Shown: positions 14,758-36,507 of the stretch, piece after piece
Layout: each line of letters begins with the position of its first letter
How positions within the stretch are numbered: position 1 is the first letter of the stretch
DNA from: Psychrobacter sp. FME6
GTDB taxonomy: Bacteria; Pseudomonadota; Gammaproteobacteria; Pseudomonadales; Moraxellaceae
NCBI RefSeq assembly: GCF_014861365.1
Contig: NZ_RRYW01000002.1
Coordinates: 1 to 64,000 of the forward strand
Direction: 5' to 3'
Length of the DNA stretch: 64,000 bases
The notes under the pieces: generated by a model
Databases searched by the model: none
What the model saw: only the letters and a program-made list of their open reading frames with translations
What the model was told of the DNA's origin: nothing
Translations under genes and position numbers: made by a program

Positions 14758-14788
14758 TAGATGAATTCTATACAGCCCCTAGTCAATC
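14758..14788. repeat. Solo end of the MITE-like element
   Basis: Beginning right after the tamB stop codon, 24 nt match the left end of the 35474-35743 element in reverse complement, including GAATTCTATACAGCCCC. An overlapping 27 nt (14762-14788) match its right end, including the outside bases GTCAATC. The body of the element is absent. Confidence 0.75.
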
Positions 14789-34937: not shown

Positions 34938-35053
34938 TGTAGCCATAAATCATAGAGTGAGTAAGCGTGCTCTATGAAATGATTTGTCAGCTATCTTTGT
35001 GACCGTCCTGCTCTTAAAAGATTAATAATATTTCAAACCGAGGTATACGTCTC

Positions 35054-35464
35054 ATGCGCTTTTTACTATTTGTATTACTGTTTTTGAGCTTTGCTTATTC
35101 TCTGGGTTTGGTATTGGCAAATAATACGGAAGTCGGCGTGAATTTGCTGTTTTCGCAAGCACCGACGATGAACTTAGGGTTGCTACTGATCCTCTGCCTG
35201 ATACTTGGCATCGTCATTGGTATTTTATTAGCGTTGCTCATTTTCCGTGTTTTACAAAACAAGTGGGAAATTTCGCGTTTACAAAAGGCGAACGCTAATT
35301 TGCAAGAGCAGATAAACCAAGCCAATGTCGTTATTGATCGTCAAGCGAATTCGCCAACAGTAGACGAAGCCGTCTATGGCGCCACAGCTGAAAACGTACA
35401 GAATGGCATAGCAGATAATAATGACGAAGGTGCAAGCTTAACCAAAAAAAAGCGAGATTATTGA
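35054..35464 (+). CDS. lapA: LapA-domain membrane protein (DUF1049)
   Basis: The protein has two transmembrane helices: FLLFVLLFLSFAYSLGLVLA and LGLLLILCLILGIVIGILLA. The short linker between them carries NNTEVGVNLLF, typical of the LapA/DUF1049 family. A coiled-coil cytoplasmic tail follows (~75-136). In E. coli, LapA works with LapB in controlling LPS synthesis. Here no lapB follows; the next 340 nt carry a MITE-like element and then pyrF. Its position after ihfB agrees with gammaproteobacterial order. GAGG precedes the ATG. Confidence 0.85.
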   Translation: MRFLLFVLLFLSFAYSLGLVLANNTEVGVNLLFSQAPTMNLGLLLILCLILGIVIGILLALLIFRVLQNKWEISRLQKANANLQEQINQANVVIDRQANSPTVDEAVYGATAENVQNGIADNNDEGASLTKKKRDY

Positions 35465-35473
35465 TTGGGTAAA

Positions 35474-35743
35474 TAGGGGCTGTATAGAATTCATCTATTA
35501 GGACTGCTGATCGCTAAAATAATTCCAGACTAGGCGTAAATCGAAGGTAATGTCGAGACCTTAGCTAGATTTACAACAACGTCTGGGGCGATTTTAGCAT
35601 CAGTCCGAAGGAACAGGACTATTTTTTGCCACTTCATAGCCAAAAATATCGCGCTTAGAATAACTAAACTTACTATTTTTGGCGTCGAATTGCCTAAAAA
35701 ATAGTCTCTGTCAGTTCCTTAGCTGAATTCTATACAGCCCCTA
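35474..35743. mobile_element. MITE-like element of 270 bp built of two long hairpins
   Basis: Perfect 20-bp terminal inverted repeats (TAGGGGCTGTATAGAATTCA at 35474-35493, and its complement at 35724-35743) enclose two imperfect stem-loops. The first, 35501-35606, pairs GCTAAAAT, CCAGAC and GTAAATC with ATTTTAGC, GTCTGG and GATTTAC. The second, 35608-35720, pairs AAGGAAC, GACTATTTTTT and GCCAAAAATA with GTTCCTT, AAAAAATAGTC and TATTTTTGGC. There is no ORF. The ends carry TA, possibly a TA target duplication. It is presumably a non-autonomous element; no transposase source is seen in the window. Confidence 0.8.
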
Positions 35744-35808
35744 GTCAATCTGTTGCTGATAAATCGTCTTATAATTATGTGATAAACCTGATATAAAGTG
35801 GCATAACC

Positions 35809-36507
35809 ATGAACAACACAATTAGCTCTCCAGTCATCGTCGCATTAGACAATATGACTAAGGATGACTCTCTAGCACTCGCTGACCAATTAGATCCGGC
35901 GTTATGCCGATTAAAAGTAGGTAAAGAGCTCTTTACCCGCTGTGGCCCTGACATAATCAAAGCATTACATCAGCGTCGGTTTGAGGTGTTTTTAGATTTA
36001 AAGTTCCATGATATCCCGAATACCACAGCGCAAGCAGTATTAGCAGCTGCTGAGCTGGGAGTATGGATGGTAAATGTCCATGCAAGCGCCGGCTACGATG
36101 CGATGTCATTAGCAAAGCAGCGTTTGTTAGATGGAAACTTTGAAACACTGTTGATCGCAGTCACCGTATTGACTTCTATGGATAACGAAGCACTCATGCA
36201 AACGGGTATCACTGACGGTCTGGATGCACAAGTGAGCCGCTTAGCTCAATTGACTAAGCAAGCAGGTCTTGATGGCGTGGTGTGCTCAGCACAAGAGGCA
36301 AAAACGCTCAAGAAATTGTGCGGTGATGATTTTAAACTGGTGACCCCAGGTATACGCTTGCCTGATGACAATACAGATGACCAAAAGCGCATTTGTACTC
36401 CAAAACAGGCATTAAGTGATGGTTCTGATTATCTGGTGATTGGGCGTTCAATTACTCAAGCTGCAGACCCTGCGGCTAAATTGCAGACGATACTTAAAGG
36501 TATTTAA
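35809..36507 (+). CDS. pyrF: Orotidine 5'-phosphate decarboxylase
   Basis: PyrF makes UMP from OMP, the last step of de novo pyrimidine synthesis. The catalytic signature [11 protein letters not shown] (Lys and Asp) lies near residue 62. VIVALDN at the start, HASAG in the middle and [16 protein letters not shown] at the phosphate-binding end are all present. The length of 232 aa is typical. A TATAAT at 35770-35775 lies 26 nt beyond the right end of the MITE-like element, so the pyrF promoter is directly adjacent to it. Confidence 0.95.

Follow-up and report, generated by a model that had tools for sequence, protein, structure and literature searches.

MITEs are usually regarded as a pair of ends with a passive filling. 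Correia elements, ERIC and RUP are short intergenic repeats that are IS-mobilised or IS-like, with RUP targeting TA, and they are simpler fold-backs than the cloverleaf element described here; we know of no family-wide four-way junction in any of the three. A MITE from the Moraxellaceae, MITEAba12 of Acinetobacter, resembles the present element in that it is gene-less and its TIRs match those of a co-resident IS, according to the passages of PMC6382973 that describe it. As characterised in those passages, however, MITEAba12 is 111-114 bp long with 9-bp target duplications, whereas the present element is 270 nt long and associated with TA, and on these grounds we rejected the identification of the element as MITEAba12. 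The same passages give MITEAba12 a weak predicted structure (-23.99 and -26.94 kcal/mol) and a conservation mainly confined to the TIRs, in contrast to the very strong conserved fold found here and to a conserved core with changing TIRs. QMITE2 of Coxiella burnetii is also composed of TIRs and a core with a large predicted fold (-113.09), but it has 7-9-bp direct repeats, and the sections on it in PMC10969869, a paper that has Correia elements and ERIC among the elements it reviews, make no mention of covariation or end exchange. Among the open-licence papers listed in literature searches, no title or abstract opening described the present element.

The window analysed in this study is a stretch of 64,000 nucleotides from Psychrobacter sp. 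FME6 (contig NZ_RRYW01000002.1, positions 1 to 64,000), and the element lies within it between lapA and pyrF (Table 1). The TIR arms are 24 nt long and 96% complementary, and the element carries TA at either end. An inverted-repeat search and reading of the sequence confirmed the 20-bp perfect TIRs described in the initial annotation, which correspond to the outermost 20 nt of the arms, and the accompanying statement that the element contains no ORF also held, as no ORF of at least 60 aa was found to overlap it. Folding of the window copy gave an MFE of -108.2 kcal/mol (z -9.95) for the plus strand and -114.4 kcal/mol (z -10.98) for the minus strand, and on neither strand was any of 200 shuffles as good. 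The element begins 9 nt downstream of the lapA stop codon, and 65 nt separate its end from the pyrF start codon, so that the description of it as directly abutting the pyrF promoter is approximate.

Table 1. Coordinates of the element, its predicted structural parts and the neighbouring genes in the window.
Feature	Position	Strand	Remarks
Whole element	35474..35743	+	270 nt including two TA dinucleotides; 12 full copies in the same genome at 99-100%
Left TIR, class A (TA + GGGGCTGTATAGAATTC...)	35474..35497	+	5' strand of outer stem P1
Right TIR	35720..35743	-	Partner strand of outer stem P1
Inner stem P1b, 5' strand	35501..35505	+	Predicted to pair with 35713-35717 and close the four-way junction
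Inner stem P1b, 3' strand	35713..35717	+	Predicted to pair with 35501-35505
Arm I, long imperfect hairpin	35506..35604	+	Covariation in the Psychrobacter and two-genus alignments
Mini-arm II	35605..35611	+	CC-GAA-GG in this copy
Arm III, long imperfect hairpin	35612..35712	+	First pair A-C, unpaired, in the window copy
lapA	35054-35464		Named from genomic context and translation, not from a family search
pyrF	35809-36507		Named from genomic context and translation, not from a family search

We compared the lapA-pyrF site with that of 29 relatives, which were the best 29 of 103 other genomes with a pyrF match, and the element was absent from this site in all of them. The distance from the lapA stop to the third pyrF codon was 356 nt in the window versus 81-99 nt in 12 relatives, and in the other 17, within the 150 nt shown, lapA ended shortly before pyrF with no element. 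The element had been said to sit where lapB would be; in the 29 relatives pyrF follows lapA with no room for lapB, and a replacement of lapB by the element was accordingly not supported.

A lone 24-nt element end was also present in the window at 14758-14781 on the minus strand, just past the stop of a long ORF that resembles tamB by appearance, and no partner for it with up to 4 mismatches was found in the 3-kb locus. Further lone ends were observed at loci L024, L025, L027 and L028. At L027, another inverted-repeat element with the ends TAGGGCGTGTCCTCATTTT adjoins the lone class-A end at about position 1503.

The genome of the window (3.36 Mb, 268 contigs) contained, besides the full copies counted in Table 1, which include the window copy, a 13th copy at 94% and additional copies cut by contig ends. 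Every end read of the full copies in this genome follows TA. In a related genome (G100), 40 of 117 candidates were scored, and 38 of these were full-length places. A search with the window copy gave matches in 77 of 105 Psychrobacter genomes. A copy with ends of a different class (class B), used as a query against 348 genomes of the family, matched 136 genomes from 4 of 16 genera, namely 88 of the 105 Psychrobacter genomes and 48 from three other genera. The second genus carrying the core is probably Acinetobacter, and a copy from it matched 84 of 175 genomes of that genus. From 193 loci we extracted 186 copies, which were reduced to 153 distinct insertions after repeated flanks had been dropped. 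The length of the element was mostly 266-294 nt, with the differences located mainly in the loops.

TA was present at both ends in 140 of the 153 distinct insertions, a count that leans upward because the script sought TAGGG and CCCTA near the expected ends, and 107 of the 153 lay within YTAR. Gene context was assigned with a simple ORF caller for the 138 of 153 copies with 700-nt flanks, and 2 of them overlapped a long ORF. Between co-directional neighbours the element pointed with the genes in 39 cases and against them in 41; the neighbours were divergent in 42 cases, convergent in 14 and unassigned in 2. The corresponding values for 30 second-genus copies were 9 with, 10 against, 10 divergent and 1 convergent, and 2 copies overlapped a long ORF. 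The check proposed in the initial annotation, a search for multiple intergenic copies with TA duplications, yielded many near-identical copies with TA at their ends. A joined-flank search of 60 genomes revealed no base-exact empty site, and each of the 8 genomes in which both flanks were found carries the element.

Several individual copies were observed in addition. One old insertion is common to 8 genomes (L450-L457), and in one of these (G020, L454) the element is inverted between the same flanks. A copy in a second-genus genome (L194, G258) is 97% identical to Psychrobacter class B copies, reflecting either a recent transfer between genera or contamination. In the plasmid collection, the window copy had no match, the class B query matched 4 records with a query coverage of 17% each, and the second-genus copy matched 5 records, all from Acinetobacter, with a coverage of 39% each. 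A fragment of the second-genus element is located on an Acinetobacter baumannii plasmid (L404, 2501-2606), with a beta-lactamase gene and an IS6-like transposase close by.

The first 20 nt of the element were found to be identical to an end of 866-bp IS copies in other genomes. These class A IS (L170:1499-2364 and L177:664-1529) have one open frame and the same ends. In G090, class B ends bound an 864-bp element (L241) whose frame is broken into two parts; differing by one or two letters, they also bound elements whose 262-aa frame is open (L227 and L229, in G071 and G083). The class B transposases are 50-53% like those of class A. Against the IS5 model NF033580, which has a cut-off of 110, three transposases reached 249-254 bits; two matched PF01609 and PF13340, and the TIRs of the IS copies are mostly preceded by TA. 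For end class D, the search for an IS gave left ends only, and a motif search of the flanks found no transposase.

In the genome of the window, the 17-nt end sequence has 60 exact matches, and the class A IS end is present at 18 places, always at contig ends and running into other sequence. Collapsed repeats typically end up at contig ends. The class A transposase gene was not found in this assembly, where the best match was 54% over 91 aa, and the loss of the class A IS interior from the contigs presumably explains its absence. The 6 PF01609 matches of this genome belong to other IS4/5-type transposases. A comparison of the core with the interior of three IS copies revealed no similarity, and the low-E matches were confined to the terminal 18-29 nt. 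The element shares its TIRs with the IS5-family elements, which encode a transposase and have an interior unrelated to the core, and we rejected its derivation from an IS by internal deletion, as in the narrow definition of a MITE; the wide sense of the term does not require such an origin. The near-identical copies with TA ends and the identity of the TIRs with those of an IS5-family element support the MITE assignment of the initial annotation. We are highly confident that the element is a MITE mobilised by an IS5-family transposase, and this confidence was lowered only slightly because the IS interior is absent from the assembly of its own genome.

The structure of the core was predicted by comparing copies within Psychrobacter and across two genera. 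The Psychrobacter alignment (A1) contained 40 of 43 representatives, leaving out the divergent L026 and the copies with rearranged ends, L107 and L121; the two-genus alignment (A2) contained 20 second-genus copies, chosen among those available so that orthologous repeats were avoided, and 10 Psychrobacter copies. For the 40 Psychrobacter copies, RNAalifold predicted the outer stem and both long arms. Of the 87 pairs, 39 had changed on both sides, and upon addition of the inner stem and the mini-arm these numbers became 42 of 91, with 96.2% of cells paired. None of 500 shuffles reached any of the five measures in this set, and sliding the partners reduced pairing to 36-48%. Across the 30 copies from the two genera, two-sided changes were present in 52 of 83 pairs, and again none of 500 shuffles matched them on any measure. 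The cells are not independent, and the cell counts overstate the number of events because many reflect one genus-level change inherited by all. The compensatory changes that the initial annotation had proposed to look for within the stems were thus found, and they agree with its impression of a structure beyond a simple foldback. When 183 copies (effective number 24) were analysed without assuming a structure, the 20 highest-ranking of 36,046 column pairs included 9 exact stem pairs, and by our reading about five others of the 20 belong to the arm III helix (positions summing to 376-377).

The overall architecture of the predicted fold is a cloverleaf in which the four-way junction and mini-arm were predicted for either strand, with energies of -74.1 and -67.4 for the two-genus set; the energies for the two strands of the Psychrobacter set were -75.6 and -76.4. 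In the family consensus, the junction contains no unpaired base. Across the two genera, all 5 pairs of the inner stem P1b changed on both sides and 89.3% of their cells were paired, although the outermost pair fails in 14 of the 30 copies. Both pairs of mini-arm II were two-sided, with 98.7% and 100% of cells paired, and in relatives its stem is kept while the loop ranges in length from 3 nt up to several tens of nucleotides. Taken together, the junction pairs were paired in 95.2% of cells and changed on both sides in 12 of 16 cases across the genera, whose letters differ. In the junction test, four measures beat all shuffles; the measure of further pair types did not (439/500).

The initial annotation had described a pair of independent hairpins, 106 and 113 nt long, possibly resembling a composite element. 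Two large stem-loops are indeed present, but their bases lie at 35506-35604 and 35612-35712, separated by a mini-hairpin (35605-35611), and the closing pairs that two independent hairpins would require were formed in only 35.7% of cells and were two-sided in 0 of 7, versus the values given above for the junction. An arrangement of two independent tandem hairpins was therefore rejected, and a composite element was likewise not supported. The outer stem P1 carries little weight, since a single transposase has to fit both ends in any case, and the evidence for the predicted fold is that of the inner stem, the arms and the mini-arm, as read from the compared copies. On this evidence, the core very probably folds as a conserved cloverleaf. 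Its retention across two genera despite changed letters suggests that the shape itself matters.

The core was found to carry at least four TIR classes, two of which were matched to IS5 relatives. The same end class was present on both sides in 141 of the 153 insertions (B 84, C 20, A 19, D 16 and A2 2). On a tree of the cores, the end class changes at least 20 times, whereas 300 label shuffles gave no fewer than 32 changes and 37 on average; this is a parsimony count on a tree with often low branch supports and not a set of 20 well-supported events. The tree included 86 of the 153 copies with their ends removed, and excluded near-identical cores and mixed or unclassed ends. Because the observed changes are fewer than the shuffled minimum, the end classes appear to be inherited for a time and then exchanged. 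Class A, to which the window copy belongs, occurs in at least three separated core groups, with many branch supports being low. We consider it likely that the cores have repeatedly exchanged their ends.

If the element were an ordinary MITE, the ends alone would matter and the core would be a passive cargo, similar through common descent. The match of the ends to an IS5-family element fits this explanation, as does one orthologous set of insertions that keeps pace with its flanks (set 2, below), and other MITEs are known in the Moraxellaceae, such as MITEAba12 in the passages of PMC6382973 cited above. The two genera, however, share the pairing of the junction rather than its letters, and one core bears several end classes, so that we regard a passive core as very unlikely.

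Some rearranged forms of the element were also observed. In L107 (G097), the core is flipped relative to the end stems, such that the left end bears the usual right-end sequence and vice versa. L409 (from 1501) and L414 (1364-1401) contain 38-bp palindromes composed of two fused class-D ends with no core, and L030 contains a 57-bp class-A version. These palindromes may be remnants of replication slippage at the foot of stem P1.

Because a conserved fold could act in a transcript or in DNA, the wobble pairs of the two strands were compared. When one strand works as RNA, G.U is expected above A.C in the stems predicted on both strands. We found G.U:A.C events of 37:47 in A1 and 40:25 in A2, and of 16:14 and 19:8, respectively, in the outer stem P1; a uniform strand bias was not found in the two alignments. 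The two long arms lean in opposite directions, arm I being rich in G.U (14:7 and 15:3) and arm III in A.C (7:26 and 4:13). In the alignment of all 153 copies, just 29 pairs were shared by the predictions for both strands, too few for a useful comparison, and none of them was in arm I. The orientation counts between co-directional genes (39 versus 41) likewise gave no preference. An RNA function, for which the initial annotation had proposed to look, was thus not supported by the strand tests, neither wobble nor orientation indicating a uniform strand. In Rfam, the window copy had two matches far below the gathering score and five loci with family members had none, and membership of a known structured RNA family was rejected on the absence of a match at the gathering score.

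These results bear on the possibility that the core is a functional RNA, either a regulatory RNA or an mRNA element, that was made mobile by IS5-type ends and whose cloverleaf is kept for the transcript. The strong two-sided covariation across two genera, the narrow range of lengths with varying loops, conserved loop letters such as TAGAATGACTA, and the conserved U-G pairs of arm I with the G.U excess there would all be expected of such an RNA. Against it stand the lack of a uniform strand in the wobble events, of an orientation preference relative to the neighbours and of an Rfam family, as well as the inversion in place at one site. Additionally, a scan of 35000-36000 around the window copy gave 3 promoter-like sites versus 2.5 expected, which is no excess, and no terminator-like sites inside the element. 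We therefore consider a functional RNA unlikely. The absence of a uniform strand or orientation bias, the prediction of a four-way junction for both strands and the inversion in place together favour a structure able to act whichever strand is used, and hence as DNA. The opposite wobble lean of the two long arms, which a DNA-level role leaves unexplained, is evidence against it, as is the lead of G.U across genera, both overall and in P1. A DNA-level role of the fold in transposition is thus possible, at somewhat less than even probability.

The pairing of the arms could also have arisen by mutation rather than selection, if template switching in a quasi-palindrome copied one arm onto the other. 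Such a process would let both strands fold alike, as they do, and the 38-bp fused-end palindromes with their 57-bp derivative suggest replication errors at the stem. The divergence of orthologous insertions differed between two sets: the element had 0.9% in set 1 versus 2.3 and 4.2% in its flanks, and 4.2% in set 2 versus 4.8 and 4.5% (set 2 comprised 7 genomes for variants and 6 for divergence), and evolution at the flank rate in set 2 is consistent with template switching. Differing as they do, the two sets speak neither for nor against a host function of the element where it stays in place. Among orthologous insertions and young copies, however, 0 of 37 variant pair types were two-sided (0/11, 0/21 and 0/5), which indicates that matching is not restored quickly, the times covered being short. 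The short junction stems and the mini-arm co-vary as well, and paired columns are more conserved than unpaired columns (0.90 versus 0.79), both of which argue against a mutational origin. Template switching accordingly seems to us an improbable source of the matched arms.

From the observed ends, copies and related IS, we infer the act of transposition and the enzyme as follows. The element is very probably a non-autonomous, selfish MITE with no gene of its own, and an IS5-family transposase supplied by another element would recognise its TIRs and insert it into intergenic DNA at TA sites, mostly in a YTAR context. The core very probably forms a separate cloverleaf fold, composed of the paired ends (P1) and three arms that meet in a four-way junction, and it has probably been given new matching pairs of ends repeatedly, allowing it to ride on different IS5 relatives. 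The mechanism that we favour for the fold is that it may act in cis on the DNA during transposition, as an extruded cruciform or a folded single strand, by bringing both ends together and/or by offering a structure like a Holliday junction to the transposase or a host protein. This explanation as a whole, comprising an IS5-mobilised MITE, a cloverleaf core, exchangeable ends and a DNA-level role of the fold, has in our estimate an even chance of being correct. More speculatively, and with a rather low probability, the four-way-junction fold may be the unit of selection, the cloverleaf core being what persists through compensatory changes in two genera, with the ends serving as adaptors for successive IS5-family transposases and the folded DNA forming part of the reaction.

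These findings give a definition to a repeat that is common in the genomes of Psychrobacter and probably of Acinetobacter. In this repeat, it appears to be the filling that persists, in the form of a fold, whereas the ends are exchanged to suit different transposases. Should movement depend on the fold, the substrate of bacterial DDE transposition would be structure-dependent, and host switching by a parasite's parasite would become testable with a small reporter.
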